From Burkholderiaceae bacterium (lineage in GTDB: Bacteria > Pseudomonadota > Gammaproteobacteria > Burkholderiales > Burkholderiaceae_B), in NCBI GenBank assembly GCA_020851995.1, contig JADZBO010000250.1, positions 1 through 47,851 of the forward strand: a stretch of DNA of 47,851 nt. Direction: 5' to 3'. Position numbers and translations under genes: made by a program. Shown here piece after piece: positions 12,682 through 47,851 of the stretch (positions are counted from its first letter, which is position 1; every line of letters begins with the position of its first letter). Under the pieces are notes generated by a model. It was not told the DNA's origin and did not search any database. It saw only the letters and a program-made list of their open reading frames with translations.

Positions 12682-14979
12682 ATGTCCGACGATGCAATGC
12701 AGGCCTTTCGCGACAGTGCGCGCGATTTGCTCTCCAGATCCGACACGCTGGCTCGTCTGCGTAACCTGCGCGGATCGCGGCCGGGCTTTGACCGCGCAGT
12801 GTGGGTTGAACTCGCCGACGCCGGCTGGTTTGGCGTGCTCGTGCCAGAGGAAGACGGCGGGCTCGGTCTGGGTTTGCGCGAGATCTGCGCAATCTCTGAG
12901 CAGGTCGGTCAGTTCCTGTTGCCCGAACCCTACATCGCCGGAGCCGTTCAGGCGGCCTGCGCACTGGTTGCCAGTGACCCGGGTGCGCGACGCGCGGCGT
13001 TGCTGGAGCAACTGGTCGCCGGCGAACTGGTGGCCGGCCTCGCCTGGCAGGACACACTGGGTCAGGTGAACGCAGGGCTTGGTGATGCGCAGGCGCGGTC
13101 CGAAGGCGACGCTTGCGTCGTGTCAGGTACCAAACGGTTCGTCACGCCCGCCGAAGGCGCCGATGGCTGGATCGTTCTGGTCGATCTGGAGGGATCCCCC
13201 GCACTGGTCTGGATCGCCGCGACGACGCCCGGAGTGCAACTCGCCAGTCAGCATTGCGTGGACGGCAGTCTGACAAGCGATCTGATTCTCGATGGCGTTC
13301 GGGTCGCTCGCCCCGACGTCCTTGCCGTGGGGGCCACGGTGCTGGCCGCGGTCGATCGCGCCAACGACTGCGCGCGTATCGTCCAGGCGGCCGAGCTGCT
13401 GGGAGTCATGCGGCGGTTGCAAACCCTGACGCTGGAGTTTCTCTGCACGCGCAAACAGTTTGGCCGTGCCATCGGAAGTTTTCAGGCCATTAAACATCGC
13501 GCGGTAGACGGATATATTCAGGTGGAGCTGTCGTCAGCCTGCCTGGCAGAAATCCTGAACCAGGCAGACGAGGGCTCAGGCCTCGCCCCACTGGCAAGTC
13601 GCGCCAAGGCGCGTTGTGCGCACGCAGCACTGTTCATGGGCCGGATGGCGATCCAGTTTCACGGCGCGATGGGCTACACCGATGAATGCGACATTGGGCT
13701 GTATTTCAAACGGGCGATGCATCTGAGCGCCTGGTTGGGCAATGCCAGTGCGCATCGCTCGCGCTATCTTCACGCGCGAGCTCCGGAGACCGCGGATGAG
13801 GCATCCGCCGAATTCAGTACGTTTCCCCAGGACGCTGACTGGGACGCAATGCCGGAACAACAGTTCCGCCAGATGCTGCGGGCGTTCTACCGAAAGCACT
13901 ACCCGGACGCGATGCGCAATCTGCCCCGGCGCTTGCGCTGGGCCGAGGTGCGCGACTGGACAATGACACTCTCCCGCCAGGGTTGGCTCGCGCCGGCCTG
14001 GCCGAAGCGGTTTGGCGGCATGGGTCTGCCACCGGACAAGATGATCGCCTACGTCGAAGAGCAGGAGCAATACGGCATTGCGCGCGCGCCCGACATGGGT
14101 ATCCTGATGATCGGGCCGTTGCTGATCCATCATGGTACTGCCGCCCAGCAGCAAAAGTTCCTGCCGAAAATCATCGCGGGCGAGCACATCTGGTGTCAGG
14201 GATATTCCGAGCCCAACGCCGGCTCCGATCTGGCTTCGCTGCGCACCGAGGCGATACCGGACGGTGGCGAATTCATTGTCAATGGTCAGAAAATCTGGAC
14301 CACGCTGGCACAGGATGCCACGCACATGTTCGCGCTGGTGCGCACCGACAAGGAAGCGCGCAAGCAGGCGGGGATCAGCTTTCTCCTGATTGATCTTGCC
14401 ACGCCGGGCATCACGATCCGGCCGATCCGCGATATTGGCGGTCACGAGGAATTTTGCGAAGTCTTTCTGGAGAATGTCCGCGTGCCCGCCGACAACCTGG
14501 TTGGCGAAATCAACCAGGGCTGGACGATGGCCAAGACATTGCTCGGCTTTGAGCGCATTTTTCTCGGCAGCCCGAAGCAGTCGCGCTACGCCCTGAGCCA
14601 GCTCAGCGCGCTGGCCGAACATCGCGGCCTGCTTGGCGATCCAGTCTTTGCCAGCCGCTATGCGGAACTGTTGCTGGATGTCGAGGATCAGGTGGCGGCT
14701 TACACGCACTTCGCGGATATCGTCAAACGCGGCGAAACCCTGCCGCCGGGCGTTTCGCTGCTTAAACTCTGGGGGACCGACACCTACCAGCGCATCTGCA
14801 CGCTACTGGTCGAATTGGCTGAGGAGCATGGCAGTACCGGGCTTAACCTTGAAGTGGCGGCAGAGGGCCTTGACGTCCCCGCGATCCTGTTTAATGCGAT
14901 TCCTTCGACAATCTATGGGGGCAGTACTGAAATCCAGAAGGAAATCATCGCCAAGAACGTGCTGCGCTTGCCCGACTAA
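12682..14979 (+). CDS. Fused double acyl-CoA dehydrogenase
   Basis: This 765-residue protein is about twice the usual acyl-CoA dehydrogenase length because two complete dehydrogenase domains are joined. The first (about 1-370) has CTRKQFGRAIGSFQAIKH (FAD-adenine contacts) and HGAMGYTDECDIGLYFKRA. The second (about 385-765) has WCQGYSEPNAGSDLASL, QKIWTT and a C-terminal YGGSTEIQKEIIAKNVL. The pairing resembles the alpha and beta chains of actinobacterial heteromeric sterol side-chain dehydrogenases, here on one chain. In the second half the position often held by a catalytic Glu (YEG) is Gly (YGG), so the halves may share the work. An AGGAG sequence lies 11 bases before the ATG. It is expected to feed the FadJ-type and thiolase steps. 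Confidence 0.88.
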   Translation: MSDDAMQAFRDSARDLLSRSDTLARLRNLRGSRPGFDRAVWVELADAGWFGVLVPEEDGGLGLGLREICAISEQVGQFLLPEPYIAGAVQAACALVASDPGARRAALLEQLVAGELVAGLAWQDTLGQVNAGLGDAQARSEGDACVVSGTKRFVTPAEGADGWIVLVDLEGSPALVWIAATTPGVQLASQHCVDGSLTSDLILDGVRVARPDVLAVGATVLAAVDRANDCARIVQAAELLGVMRRLQTLTLEFLCTRKQFGRAIGSFQAIKHRAVDGYIQVELSSACLAEILNQADEGSGLAPLASRAKARCAHAALFMGRMAIQFHGAMGYTDECDIGLYFKRAMHLSAWLGNASAHRSRYLHARAPETADEASAEFSTFPQDADWDAMPEQQFRQMLRAFYRKHYPDAMRNLPRRLRWAEVRDWTMTLSRQGWLAPAWPKRFGGMGLPPDKMIAYVEEQEQYGIARAPDMGILMIGPLLIHHGTAAQQQKFLPKIIAGEHIWCQGYSEPNAGSDLASLRTEAIPDGGEFIVNGQKIWTTLAQDATHMFALVRTDKEARKQAGISFLLIDLATPGITIRPIRDIGGHEEFCEVFLENVRVPADNLVGEINQGWTMAKTLLGFERIFLGSPKQSRYALSQLSALAEHRGLLGDPVFASRYAELLLDVEDQVAAYTHFADIVKRGETLPPGVSLLKLWGTDTYQRICTLLVELAEEHGSTGLNLEVAAEGLDVPAILFNAIPSTIYGGSTEIQKEIIAKNVLRLPD

Positions 14980-40999: not shown

Positions 41000-41308
41000 G
41001 TGCCAGGCCAGCCGCAGTCAAACCGGCTCGAGTTGACAGGACAGGTTGTCGAGGTCTCCCCACTCAGGTTCACACCGGCCGGGGTACCAGTTCTCGAATT
41101 CCTGATCTCACACGAGTCCGAGGTGACCGAAGCGGGCCAGCAACGCCGGGTTGCACTCACGATACCCGTGATTGCGCTAGGCGATTTGGCACGGATGTCG
41201 GGGGTGTTGCAATTAGGCGGTTCGGTGCGGATTCAGGGTTTTCTGGCCCCGCAACGAAAGGATTCTCCAAGATTCAGGCTGCATGCGCAGCTTATTCAAC
41301 AAATTTGA
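41000..41308 (+). CDS. priB: Primosomal replication protein PriB
   Basis: This 102-residue single OB-fold protein begins NRLELTGQVVEVSPLRFTPAG, with the LEF strand and a C-terminal GSVRIQGFLA strand characteristic of PriB between rpsF and rpsR. It binds single-stranded DNA and helps PriA reload DnaB at stalled forks; DnaB is encoded 1.7 kb downstream. The start is a GTG at 41000, nine bases after rpsF, with no ATG before the conserved region. Confidence 0.92.
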   Translation: MPGQPQSNRLELTGQVVEVSPLRFTPAGVPVLEFLISHESEVTEAGQQRRVALTIPVIALGDLARMSGVLQLGGSVRIQGFLAPQRKDSPRFRLHAQLIQQI

Positions 41309-42144: not shown

Positions 42145-42978
42145 ATGTCTGACAACGACGACACCAGTTTTAACGCGGCGCTTGCCCAGTGGCTTGCCAG
42201 CCACGCTGGTGATCGCCCGGGTGTGCGCCTGATCGAACTCGATGGCCGCCGTTGCGTCGTCAAGCGGCGCCACGATACGTTCTGGACGCGGGCCACGTTT
42301 TTTCTGCGCTATCTGCGCTCGTCTATCAGCGCGATCGTCTGCCTGCTGACCCTCGGGGAGTTTCCATCGGTTCGCGTTTTGCTGCGCAACGGCCTTGATG
42401 ACGAGGCCGAGCGCCTGCGCCTGTTGCGTGCCGCCGGGCAACGGGTGCCGGCCATTCTTCACCACGGGCGCGGCGTGCTGGTGCTTGAATTCGTGGGTCA
42501 GGACCTCCCTTACCTCATCCGGATCGGAACGCCTGCCGAGCGGCTGCAGTGGATGGCGGCCGCCGCGCGCGATCTGGCCGAGTTTCACGGGGCCGGGTTT
42601 GTACATGGCGGCGCACAACTGCGTAATCTGATGTGGCGGGATTCGCTGACCCGAATCGACTTCGAGGAAAACATCGGTGCAGCGCTCTCGCGCCCGCTAG
42701 GGCAGGCCTACGATGTCTACCAGATGATCTCGTCCATGGCCGGGCTCAGGGGTCACGAATTCAATCCGGTCAACCGCCAGGAGCTATGCGACGCATTGCT
42801 GGACGCTTATCTTCTGGCGAATCCGGATCCGGCTGTCAGGGCGCAGCTTCAACGGATGGCCAAAGCGCTCGCAAGAGTGCGCCGTCAACTGGGCTGGTTG
42901 CTGGTCAGGGCTCCGGGCCGCGATCTTCAGGGTGTCGTGCACGTTGCGGATGCCCTTGCGGTTATGATTGTTCAATGA
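42145..42978 (+). CDS. Kinase-fold protein with non-canonical catalytic loop (Bud32/RIO/WaaP-like)
   Basis: This 277-residue protein shows protein kinase-like fold landmarks in order: RRCVVKRRH with the beta-3 lysine Lys40, an acidic ERLRLLRAAG helix, the hinge-like VLEFVG, then HGGAQLRNLM (154-163) and IDFEENIG (171-178). In active Bud32/RIO/lipopolysaccharide kinases these last motifs are HGDxxxxN and DFG/DFD. Here the catalytic Asp is Gly156, while Asn161 and the metal Asp172 are kept. A hydrophobic segment at about 51-70 may contact the membrane. The stop overlaps the dnaB start (ATGA), so the gene is translationally coupled to the replicative helicase. Substrate and activity are unknown; sugar-lipid or protein phosphorylation and pseudokinase are all open. 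Confidence 0.72.
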   Translation: MSDNDDTSFNAALAQWLASHAGDRPGVRLIELDGRRCVVKRRHDTFWTRATFFLRYLRSSISAIVCLLTLGEFPSVRVLLRNGLDDEAERLRLLRAAGQRVPAILHHGRGVLVLEFVGQDLPYLIRIGTPAERLQWMAAAARDLAEFHGAGFVHGGAQLRNLMWRDSLTRIDFEENIGAALSRPLGQAYDVYQMISSMAGLRGHEFNPVNRQELCDALLDAYLLANPDPAVRAQLQRMAKALARVRRQLGWLLVRAPGRDLQGVVHVADALAVMIVQ

Positions 42979-44363: not shown

Positions 44364-45443
44364 TTAGAGCACCGTATCGGGCGCTGACGCAAGCTCCTTG
44401 CGCTGGACGAGTTGCCGAATCCGGATGGCATCACCGATTCGCGTTGATTTGCCTTCGGCGTTCAGCAAAACGATCGCGGTGTCGCGATTGTTGATGCGCG
44501 CCACCATCACAAGGCACTGACCGGCTTCATTGATGTAACCCGTCTTGGACACCCGGATGTCCCAGTCGCGATTGGCCACCAGCATGTTGGTGTTGCGAAA
44601 GAGGGTGGTGCGCCCGCTTTTGAACTTGACCTCGTGCTCCTGGTCGGTGGTGTAGCGGTGGATCGCTTCGCGCGAGGCGGAGGCCTGGAGCAGTTTGACC
44701 AGGTCGCTTGGTGTGGCTACGTTGTCGCTGGACAAGCCGGTTGGCTCGACAAACTGTGAGCGAGACATGCCGATCTCCTGGGCCTTCGCGTTCATCGCGG
44801 CGACAAACGCAGGAAGGCCACCCGGATACGTCCGTCCAAGCGCGTTGGCGGCACGGTTTTCGGAGGACATCAGCGCAAGGTGGAGCATCTCCGCGCGGGT
44901 CAGTTTGGTACCCACCGCAAGGCGCGAGCGGCTGTGTTTGACCGTATCCACATCGTCTTGCGTGACTTCGATGACATCGCTCAGCGGTAGCTTGGAGTCA
45001 ACGATCACGATGGCTGTCATCAGCTTCGTGATGGAAGCGATCGGGCGGGGGACATCGTCGTTACGGGAGTAAAGTACCGCGCTGCTGGAGAGATCCTGCA
45101 CGTAGACGACATGCGAGCGCACCGCACCGTAGGACGTGACCTTGGCCACCGGGGCGGCTTTTGCCGCAGCTGTTTTGGCAGCCGCCTGTTTGGAACTGTT
45201 GGCAGCCGACTTGGCCTTTGTGTTCTTGGCTTCCGGCTTTTTAGCCGTCGTGGAGGATTTGGGTGCTGATTTCGCCGGGGTTTCGGCGGACTTTTTGGCA
45301 CCGCTGCCAGATTTTTGCTGGGATTGCGATGTGCTGGACGCTTTATCCTGACCGACAGCGATCCCGGCAGAGAGCGAAAGCGCCACCGCGAGCAGTGACG
45401 TCAGACAGGACTTGCGATACTTCCATTGCAGCGGCAAATGCAT
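44364..45443 (-). CDS. D-alanyl-D-alanine endopeptidase, peptidase S11 family (PbpG/PBP7-like)
   Basis: This 359-residue secreted protein has a signal peptide (about 1-31, basic YRK then SLLAVALSLSAGIAVG and cleavage near AVGQD). A roughly 70-residue Lys/Ala/Ser-rich linker follows, then the penicillin-binding fold with SITK (Ser137-Lys140), SEN (194-196) and KTG near 305. It acts in the periplasm on peptidoglycan cross-links and is penicillin-sensitive. The basic linker probably runs along the cell wall. The start at 45443 gives a normal signal peptide. A TATAAT box lies about 35 bases upstream. Confidence 0.92.
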   Translation of the reverse strand: MHLPLQWKYRKSCLTSLLAVALSLSAGIAVGQDKASSTSQSQQKSGSGAKKSAETPAKSAPKSSTTAKKPEAKNTKAKSAANSSKQAAAKTAAAKAAPVAKVTSYGAVRSHVVYVQDLSSSAVLYSRNDDVPRPIASITKLMTAIVIVDSKLPLSDVIEVTQDDVDTVKHSRSRLAVGTKLTRAEMLHLALMSSENRAANALGRTYPGGLPAFVAAMNAKAQEIGMSRSQFVEPTGLSSDNVATPSDLVKLLQASASREAIHRYTTDQEHEVKFKSGRTTLFRNTNMLVANRDWDIRVSKTGYINEAGQCLVMVARINNRDTAIVLLNAEGKSTRIGDAIRIRQLVQRKELASAPDTVL

Positions 45444-45701
45444 CCCTAATGCCCGGTTTTTTTTTAAAATCTAATCGAATTATATAGTTAGAGATGAAAC
45501 TTAAACCTGTTTTTACGTAAATATTTGCTACAGCAGTGTGGTCTTTTGATGTGTCGAAACAAACTCTGTCCTTGCGAATGAACTCTGTCCTTCGGCAACT
45601 TCGCTCAATGCATTTGAAAGTGGCTATATTTTGCAGCTAAATGCTGAACAATTTCTCGCAACAAGCGGTTCGCAATGTTTCTGGAACTCTGCATCAGCCA
45701 C
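45444..45701. other. A/T-rich intergenic region with a short direct repeat
   Basis: This 258-base region separates the endopeptidase start from the end of the GGDEF-EAL gene. It is clearly richer in A and T than the rest of the window. AACTCTGTCCTT occurs at 45562-45573 and 45581-45592. No gene and no clear terminator for the GGDEF-EAL gene were found. Confidence 0.5.
45479..45484 (-). promoter_or_regulatory. Consensus -10 box of the endopeptidase gene
   Basis: A perfect TATAAT on the minus strand lies 35 bases before the ATG in an A/T-rich stretch. The -35 region is weak (GGTTTA at a 17-base spacing), so an activator or an alternative -35 is possible. Confidence 0.5.
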
Positions 45702-47851
45702 TCATGCCGAATGCTTGAAGAGTGCCTCAAACGTCTCGATCGGAACGGGTGCGCTCAACAGATAGCCTTGGTAATGGTGACAACCCAAGCCAAGCAATAG
45801 ATCTCGCTGTGCCGCGGTTTCAACCCCTTCGGCGATGACTTGCAGACCCATGGCCTCAGCCAGGACGATCACCATCTTTGCAATGGCGGCATCGTTCGAG
45901 TCGATCAAAATGTCGCGGACAAATTCCTGGGCGATCTTAAGTTGATCAAGTGGTAGGCGCTTGAGGTACGAAAGAGACGAATAGCCGGTGCCGAAGTCAT
46001 CCAGCGAGAAGCTCACGCCGAGTTCCTTGATCACGTTCATCTTGGAAATAATTTCTTCCACATCTTCAACCAACACGCTTTCGGTCAGTTCAAGCTTTAG
46101 TCGACGGGGGTTTGCACCTGTCTCATTGATGACGTGCCGTACTTCTTCCGCAAATTTTGGTTGCCTGAATTCCCGGGCGCTGACGTTCACTGAAATAATC
46201 AGGTGAGCCATCCCGGGCTGCGCTGCCCACAGGGCCAATTGAGTGCAAGCCGCATGCAACACCCAACGCCCCAAGGGGAGAATCAGCCCGCTAGCCTCGG
46301 CCACTGCGATAAAGTCGCCTGGCGAGACAAGACCTCGCTGCGGGTGTCGCCAGCGCACCAGGGCTTCCGCTCCGGTCAAGTGGTTAATATCGTCACCCTG
46401 AGGCTGGTAATACAGAACGAACTGATCACCCTGCAAGGCGTGGCGCAGTCCTTCTTCGAGTTGCACGCGCGCGCTAACGACTGCCTTCATCTCCTGCTCG
46501 AAGAACCGCAAAACATTACGCCCGGCAGCCTTTGCGTCGTACATGGCTAGTTCGCTACGTTTGAGAAGCTCTTCGACAGTCTCATTTCGGTCAGCGCCAA
46601 ACAGAGTGACGCCGATACTGGCGCTTCCGTATTGCTCATGACTGTCTAGCTGATATGGCTTGGAAAGCGCAGTCAGGATTTTTGATCCCACCACGCCGCT
46701 CTGCTCAGTGGCCTCGATTGTTCCACCGTTCAGATTTTCCAGCAACACCACAAACTCGTCGCCGCCGAGCCGTGCCACGGTGTCGCCCTCGCGCACGCAC
46801 GATTTGAGTCGCATGGCGACGTCCTTCAGAAGGACGTCTCCCGTGTCGTGACCCAACGTGTCATTCACCATCTTGAAGTTATCCAGATCAATGAACAACA
46901 AAGCGCTGAGTTGTTGATTGCGATGCGCCAGGACCAGCGCCCGCTCGAGCCGATCCATCAGAAGCCGGCGATTGGGCAGGCCGGTGAGCGGATCTGAAAA
47001 AGCCAGCCGCTCGATCTGGCTCTCCGCTCGCTTACGCTCGCTGATGTCGCGCGCGGTTGCCGACACACCGATAATCTGATTTTGTAAATTGCGAATCGGC
47101 GAAATAGTGAAGGAGACGTCAATGAGCCGACCATCTTTTCGGATACGCTCGGTTTCAAATTGGTAGATCGACTCGCCGCGTGCAACGGCCCCAAGGAAAT
47201 TCTGCTCCTCCTGCTGCCGTTCCGCAGGAAGAAGGCTTAACACGGAATGCCCGATCATTTCTTCGGCTGTATATCCGAAAATCCTTTCTGCGGCCCGGTT
47301 CCAACTCGTCACGATTCCATCGGGTGTTTTCCCGATAATCGCATCGCCACTTGACTCGACAATGGCTGCGAGCAGCGAAACATTCCGCTCCAAATTGGAT
47401 TTAGCAACGTTGTGTGCCAACCGGAGCTCTTCTTCAACTTGCCTGCGATGTGAGATCTCGTTTTGCAGCGCCTCATTGGCCTTTTTGAGTTGCATCGGAC
47501 TCGGTAGCTTTAGCGCTTGCGGCAGCAGGGGCCAGAGTACGATAGCGGTCACGACTGAAATGGCGGCAGTACATGCCTTGAGCAGCGCGTCGAACGCGTA
47601 CATCGGCTTATACAGCACGATTGCGCCCATCAAGTGCGTTGCGCCACAGGCCAGAATGAATGCTGAAAACAGCCATAACAGCCAACGATAGGGAAAATCC
47701 TCCCGTTTTCGGGCGAAGTAGCCCAATGCGACTGGCATCGACATATAGGACAAGAAAATCAGAACGTCGCTGATAACAAAGGTGACAACCAGCGGTGGCG
47801 ACCAACTCAGGCAATAGCCATGCGGGATATAGCCATTAACCGCCAATAGTC
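45702..47851 (-). CDS. Ethylene-receptor-like membrane sensor with PAS-GGDEF-EAL (c-di-GMP turnover), N-terminus at window edge
   Basis: At least 714 residues from a TTG at 47846; the frame is still open at the edge, so a few N-terminal residues may be missing. Numbering is from that TTG. Three membrane helices (about 18-110) match the ETR1 ethylene-binding domain: Asp27, Tyr34, Pro38, Ile64, Cys67 and His71 (in CGATHL) correspond to ETR1 Asp25, Tyr32, Pro36, Ile62 and the copper ligands Cys65 and His69 at identical spacing; ETR1 Ile35 is Met37. A coiled coil, a PAS domain (about 158-277), a GGDEF domain with intact LGGDEF and an upstream REGD inhibitory-type site, and an EAL domain with EALVRW, ELTES, DDFGTGYSS and AEGVET follow. 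Both catalytic domains look complete. The ligand is inferred, not shown. Confidence 0.88.
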   Translation of the reverse strand, partial: LLAVNGYIPHGYCLSWSPPLVVTFVISDVLIFLSYMSMPVALGYFARKREDFPYRWLLWLFSAFILACGATHLMGAIVLYKPMYAFDALLKACTAAISVVTAIVLWPLLPQALKLPSPMQLKKANEALQNEISHRRQVEEELRLAHNVAKSNLERNVSLLAAIVESSGDAIIGKTPDGIVTSWNRAAERIFGYTAEEMIGHSVLSLLPAERQQEEQNFLGAVARGESIYQFETERIRKDGRLIDVSFTISPIRNLQNQIIGVSATARDISERKRAESQIERLAFSDPLTGLPNRRLLMDRLERALVLAHRNQQLSALLFIDLDNFKMVNDTLGHDTGDVLLKDVAMRLKSCVREGDTVARLGGDEFVVLLENLNGGTIEATEQSGVVGSKILTALSKPYQLDSHEQYGSASIGVTLFGADRNETVEELLKRSELAMYDAKAAGRNVLRFFEQEMKAVVSARVQLEEGLRHALQGDQFVLYYQPQGDDINHLTGAEALVRWRHPQRGLVSPGDFIAVAEASGLILPLGRWVLHAACTQLALWAAQPGMAHLIISVNVSAREFRQPKFAEEVRHVINETGANPRRLKLELTESVLVEDVEEIISKMNVIKELGVSFSLDDFGTGYSSLSYLKRLPLDQLKIAQEFVRDILIDSNDAAIAKMVIVLAEAMGLQVIAEGVETAAQRDLLLGLGCHHYQGYLLSAPVPIETFEALFKHSA

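Follow-up and report, generated by a model that had tools for sequence, protein, structure and literature searches.

A protein with an ethylene-receptor-type sensor domain and PAS, GGDEF, and EAL domains at a contig end of a Burkholderiaceae bacterium

The window (the whole stretch of DNA that we analyzed, 47,851 nucleotides) ends where its contig ends (G000:C250:1-47851), and the last gene, on the minus strand, runs into that end, so its first codons are cut off. The visible 715 amino acids hold four domains in one frame, and each exceeds its Pfam cut-off: ETR1_N at residues 20–115, PAS at about 160–274, GGDEF at 283–445, and EAL at 468–701. The fusion described in the first-pass annotation of this DNA, of a sensor to PAS, GGDEF, and EAL domains, is thus confirmed. 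A histidine kinase domain is absent among the eight Pfam matches of this protein. The features are:

45702..47849, minus strand: open reading frame with an ethylene-binding-type domain (EBD), PAS, GGDEF, and EAL; 715 amino acids visible, open at the 5' end at the contig end
47505..47792, minus strand: ETR1_N (PF25487), the ethylene-binding-type domain; residues 20–115, with D28, Y35, M38, P39, I65, C68, H72, and K91
47352..47498, minus strand: long predicted helix from the sensor to the PAS domain; residues 118–166, block pLDDT 50–66 over most of it
47028..47372, minus strand: PAS domain (Pfam); residues 160–274
46515..47003, minus strand: GGDEF diguanylate cyclase domain; GGDEF motif and RxxD I-site intact (REGD-TVARL-GGDEF)
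45747..46448, minus strand: EAL domain; the Asp that binds the M2 metal is replaced by A640

A TTG codon had been proposed as the start. But the gene runs past the contig end and its close relatives are longer at the N terminus; the proposed TTG is therefore artefactual, and the real start is lost. The window's frame opens at LLAVNGY; the relatives L020 and L022 begin earlier, with M-I-D-E-L-S-R. The extension relative to the 715-residue frame is seven residues in most of the close relatives shown and three in L018. We found no promoter- or terminator-like site in 45400–45760.

Two other genes in the window caught our attention. A small kinase-like gene lies just upstream of dnaB (42145–42978, plus strand), and its matches to RIO1 and Bud32 are weak and below the cut-off. 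A 765-amino-acid open reading frame (12682–14979, plus strand) matches acyl-CoA dehydrogenase models in tandem (PimD-like at residues 9–362 and PimC-like at 392–763, both below curated cut-offs); two subunits are apparently fused in one protein.

The sensor domain

In a Pfam scan of the open reading frame, ETR1_N (PF25487) scored 119.8 bits against a cut-off of 27 (E = 6e-35). It is the only match to this family in its own genome (E = 6e-36), and there were none in 14 control genomes, so the match is not due to chance. The ETR1-like sensor that was first noticed from the sequence is real.

Also as first noticed, six of the seven residues that are reported as required for ethylene binding are kept, and Ile35 of ETR1 is replaced by Met. 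(Our numbers, for the 715-residue frame, are one higher than those in the first-pass annotation.) In our alignment, the copper-site residues C65 and H69 of ETR1 correspond to C68 and H72, D25 corresponds to D28, and K91 is equivalent to K91 of ETR1. The columns that we take to be those of ETR1 Y32, I35, P36, and I62 were assigned by the ETR1 numbering. For D25, C65, H69, and K91, our columns agree with the mapping excerpted from PMC11819568, in which these residues correspond to D35, C75, H79, and K98 of the bacterial receptor AzoEtr1. I35, P36, and I62 are listed among the residues that are essential in ETR1 (PMC6586836).

A structure model of the sensor has three predicted helices (residues 18–48, 55–80, and 84–113; mean pLDDT 75.4), and we predict that all three are inserted in the membrane. 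The full-length model is modest (pLDDT 69.5, pTM 0.41). We found no solved structure of the sensor by sequence (best E of 0.8) or by fold at E ≤ 0.001.

The domain has relatives among known receptors. Like the window protein, AzoEtr1 from Azospirillum brasilense Sp7 (L100) has an N-terminal EBD with the copper-site residues and then a PAS domain, and the two EBDs are 51% identical. Unlike the window protein, AzoEtr1 has Ile at the I35 position, and it acts through a histidine kinase and a separate response regulator. AzoEtr1(1-130) binds ethylene, according to PMC11819568. SynEtr1 (slr1212) from Synechocystis also has a functional ethylene-binding domain, but there the EBD is followed by a cyanobacteriochrome and a histidine kinase (PMC6682694). 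The contrast that was originally drawn with plant receptors, as signaling through histidine kinases, is dated: PMC11819568 states that they signal mainly by a route that is independent of the histidine kinase.

Does the Met at the I35 column indicate that the gene is decaying? We rejected this explanation. Met is invariant at this column throughout the alignment of the window with its 13 close relatives. It is also found in 19 of the 89 aligned sequences of our first set and in 19 of the 165 of the larger set (the sets are described below). Eighteen of the Met sequences are in our tree of EBDs, where a single branch with a support of 100 separates exactly these 18 from all other sequences, and 11 of the 18 are kinases. 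(The nineteenth, L029, is truncated at its end and is outside the tree.) Given the invariance and the single well-supported branch, Met at I35 is a trait of a clade. Still, the replaced Ile belongs to the seven residues that are reported to be needed, and we counted its loss against ethylene binding. We know of no protein with Met35 that has been tested for ethylene binding.

So we also considered that the membrane domain might no longer be an ethylene sensor. It could respond to copper, redox state, or another small ligand, or it could act as an anchor or help in dimerization, with the PAS domain doing the sensing. The Met at I35 fits this idea. So does the presence of a PAS domain, which is itself a sensor domain; this too we counted against ethylene. 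Furthermore, an Azospirillum PAS-GGDEF-EAL protein carries MHYT, a predicted copper-containing membrane sensor of O2, CO, or NO (PMC5845226). However, the EBD is strongly conserved (66–79% identity over 134 residues in the 13 relatives) and its copper-site residues are kept, while the outputs that it is attached to vary; faster drift would be expected of a mere anchor. We consider the loss of ethylene sensing to be unlikely, and we favor ethylene as the ligand.

The EBD-GGDEF proteins that lack an EAL domain are a separate case. At the position of D25, 5 of 6 in the first alignment and 5 of 15 in the larger set have Asn (L046, L047, L050, L052, and L055). Because loss of D25 abolishes ethylene binding by ETR1 (PMC11819568), proteins of this group may bind another ligand or none.

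The GGDEF and EAL domains

Both output domains had been described as having intact motifs. This is correct for the GGDEF domain, whose namesake motif and RxxD I-site are both intact:

REGDTVARLGGDEF

It is not correct for the EAL domain. Nine of the residues that we checked are kept (E495, N555, E587, D617, D618, K638, E674, E677, and Q694), but A640 takes the place of the Asp in the usual KID. The M2 magnesium of PA3825 is coordinated by Asp161 and Asp183; Asp160-161 are the DD of DDFGTG (PMC5301497). By spacing, A640 corresponds to Asp183 (D617 + 23 = A640 and 160 + 23 = 183). The GGDEF-EAL proteins with solved structures 4rnh and 5m3c have Asp at the A640 column, in a gap-free alignment.

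We compared 50 distinct EAL domains (55 rows, 52 of them distinct, of which 50 cover the sites), and the M2 column has Asp in 47, Ala in two (the window and L116), and Ser in one (L150, from the window's own genome). Among the 44 complete EBD-GGDEF-EAL proteins of our later set, the Asp is missing from six: the window, L116, L271, and L293 have Ala, L288 has Gly, and L272 has Pro along with further changes. (L116, L271, and L293 are from genus g327; L288 and L272 are from genus g641.)

Could the EAL domain nevertheless be the working output, so that ethylene switches a net phosphodiesterase that tolerates the missing Asp? Many PAS-GGDEF-EAL proteins are phosphodiesterases. The nine other residues are kept, including the glutamates of EGVE, and the four top-scoring NCBIfam models are all for phosphodiesterases, albeit far below their cut-offs (DibA had 498.7 of 980 bits). 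Also, PMC12900916 lists EAL domains that function although their signatures deviate in part. By the rule given there, an EAL domain with a changed signature residue and an intact catalytic base has uncertain activity; judged from its sequence, the window's EAL domain falls in this class, and the missing Asp does not prove that it is inactive. On the other hand, an M2 ligand that is Asp in nearly all of the EAL domains we compared is Ala here, and the intact I-site and GGDEF motif suit an active cyclase. A net phosphodiesterase therefore seems improbable to us. Instead, because the M2 magnesium ligand is missing, we think that the EAL domain is more likely weak or regulatory than a strong phosphodiesterase, and that the net output is probably that of a cyclase.

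A gas sensor attached to a GGDEF-EAL module has a precedent in DosP, an O2-sensing c-di-GMP phosphodiesterase whose output region matches the window protein by sequence. The sensor of DosP is a soluble haem-PAS domain, while the sensor in the window is a membrane domain of the copper type.

The genome has further c-di-GMP genes, with 27 GGDEF matches and 15 EAL matches (some are partial, and one EAL match is below the cut-off). Its sole PilZ match is in an 861-amino-acid glycosyltransferase that resembles cellulose synthase (L303 738-3320, minus strand, G000:C159). So a change in c-di-GMP would have at least one likely target.

Distribution and origin

We scanned genomes for PF25487 (E ≤ 0.001; the samples overlap, and most of them include a few matches below the cut-off of the Pfam family). 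Of 268 genomes from the window's family, 15 had a match; the counts were 27 of 399 for its order, 16 of 369 for its class, and 29 of 398 for its phylum. In the order of G788 the count was 88 of 176 genomes, and in the family of G380 it was 28 of 170. Within the order of G788, five or six matches occur in some genomes (G1491, G1402, and G1536), which indicates that the ethylene-type domain multiplied in that order. An older study, as cited in PMC4686702, reported that such domains are generally missing from eubacteria other than cyanobacteria; our genome scans contradict this.

To see what these domains are attached to, we kept the longest protein for each identical EBD core. The first set of 89 proteins has 53 with a kinase, 7 with GGDEF and EAL (including the window), 6 with GGDEF only, and 23 with none of these, some of which are truncated. 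The later set adds 60 stretches from the scans of the order of G788 and the family of G380 that were chosen mostly for their long open reading frames, and it is therefore biased (57 of the 60 yielded a protein that was kept). It has 148 proteins that are complete at the 3' end: 67 with a kinase, 44 with GGDEF and EAL, 12 with GGDEF, and 25 others. (EBD cores under 40 residues were dropped, and 14 frames open at the 3' end were tallied separately.)

The first-pass annotation implied that the fusion is rare. This is not supported: GGDEF or GGDEF-EAL outputs are found in 13 of the 89 proteins of the first set and in 56 of the 148 of the later set, which was partly chosen for long open reading frames. 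Among the added complete proteins, GGDEF and EAL occur together in 16 of 19 from family f25 and in 21 of 38 from the order of G788. From these two groups and the 44 proteins of the later set, we conclude that the EBD-GGDEF-EAL architecture is recurrent. A 2020 review describes varied putative outputs for bacterial ethylene-domain proteins, including some that are absent from plant receptors (PMC7700396). We met no description of an EBD-GGDEF-EAL protein in the part of the literature that we consulted. The window protein is a real and well-formed representative of a kind that recurs in proteobacteria; its gene is truncated at the 5' end, and its EAL domain is probably weakened.

Two groups share the architecture of the window protein. 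Sterolibacterium metagenome-assembled genomes (L021 and L022) encode proteins with the same domain order (with one or two PAS matches), with Met at I35, and with EBDs that are 72–77% identical to that of the window protein, but they retain the M2 Asp (KID). Family f25 supplies 18 more such proteins (L107, L108, and 16 of the 19 complete ones among L240–L259), which are 750–880 amino acids long. Their EBDs are 43–55% identical to that of the window protein, all 18 keep the M2 Asp, and L107 and L108 have Ile at I35.

We considered whether the window protein and those of L021 and L022 descend from a single fusion, but this is not supported. The GGDEF-EAL half of the window protein is about 60–61% identical to those of L022, of L260 and L265 (from a distant order), and of L154 and L155 (from the window's own genus), so L022 is no nearer than the others. 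More broadly, close relatives of the sensor are from Rhodocyclales or Rhodocyclaceae, Sterolibacterium, Accumulibacter, Rhodoferax, Polaromonas, Magnetococcales, and unresolved proteobacteria, and at least 7 of the 14 loci in the close alignment encode kinases.

Our tree of EBDs is a quick one (162 of 165 rows, 109 columns), and 82 of its 159 inner branches are open, with several long rows placed unsurely. It includes three cyanobacterial sequences, which are from plasmids; it has no plant sequence. Of the 18 rows in the starred set that holds the window protein, 11 are kinases, 3 are GGDEF-EAL proteins, 3 are others, and 1 is truncated. Over all rows, the starred branches force at least five changes of the GGDEF-EAL label, with many forks open.

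The domain was found in just 1 of 32 genomes of the window's genus, so the gene was probably acquired horizontally. Horizontal gain along with repeated swapping of outputs would be the simplest reading. The gene's composition also stands out: its G+C content is 54.7%, versus 60.9% for the window, and its GC3 is 62.6, versus 70–79 in twelve of the thirteen other genes that we checked. (The exception is a short gene, 41000–41308, with a GC3 of 61.2.) An assembly artefact, in which the contig end is chimeric or misbinned and does not belong to the genome, is very improbable: the gene does lie at the extreme contig end, with a lower G+C content and a domain that is rare in its genus, but the 2.1-kb frame is unbroken, it shares its contig with dxs and dnaB, its composition also fits horizontal transfer, and the genome's estimated contamination is 1.11%. 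The DnaB encoded in the window is 60–71% identical to its counterparts in 11 of 12 genomes searched, most of them labeled as betaproteobacterial, and 49% identical to that of a Magnetococcales metagenome-assembled genome.

An EBD kinase and a response regulator are also found on plasmid p2 of Novosphingobium sp. ES2-1 (L101 1-2183 and 2962-4429). They are near a gene annotated as Cas9, and the plasmid is typed as conjugative.

A proposed switch from ethylene to c-di-GMP

We propose, with a probability of roughly 0.55, that the window protein is a membrane-bound switch that links ethylene to c-di-GMP within one protein and whose net output is probably that of a cyclase. The receptor would probably be dimeric, with the sensor and c-di-GMP turnover in the same polypeptide. 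We infer that Cu(I), held by C68 and H72 of the three-helix domain, would bind ethylene. The signal would then travel along the long helix, through the PAS domain, and on to a pair of GGDEF domains, and c-di-GMP synthesis would be altered.

The direction of the effect can be guessed from known receptors. Ethylene inhibits the kinase activity of AtETR1; for SynEtr1 the evidence is indirect, and for AzoEtr1 the same effect is predicted. In A. brasilense, c-di-GMP fell under ethylene (all from PMC11819568). By analogy, we expect that ethylene would lower the cyclase output; the lower c-di-GMP would favor motility over attachment. But in A. brasilense the effect runs through a histidine kinase receptor, and in Komagataeibacter, for which no receptor was known, cellulose production is reported to rise under ethylene (PMC4686702), so the direction may differ among organisms.

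A stricter version of our proposal, which we find doubtful, is that ethylene controls synthesis only, with no phosphorelay, and that the EAL domain became non-catalytic or regulatory once its M2 ligand was lost. The Asp is also missing from proteins of two other genera (g327 and g641), so ethylene-domain fusions would then have drifted to a cyclase-only output more than once.

If such proteins bind ethylene, then a gas made by plants and in soil would directly set the level of a bacterial second messenger. The EBD-GGDEF(-EAL) proteins that we found would then be test cases that do not need a phosphorelay partner, and they would be a model for the fall in c-di-GMP under ethylene in A. brasilense (PMC11819568).
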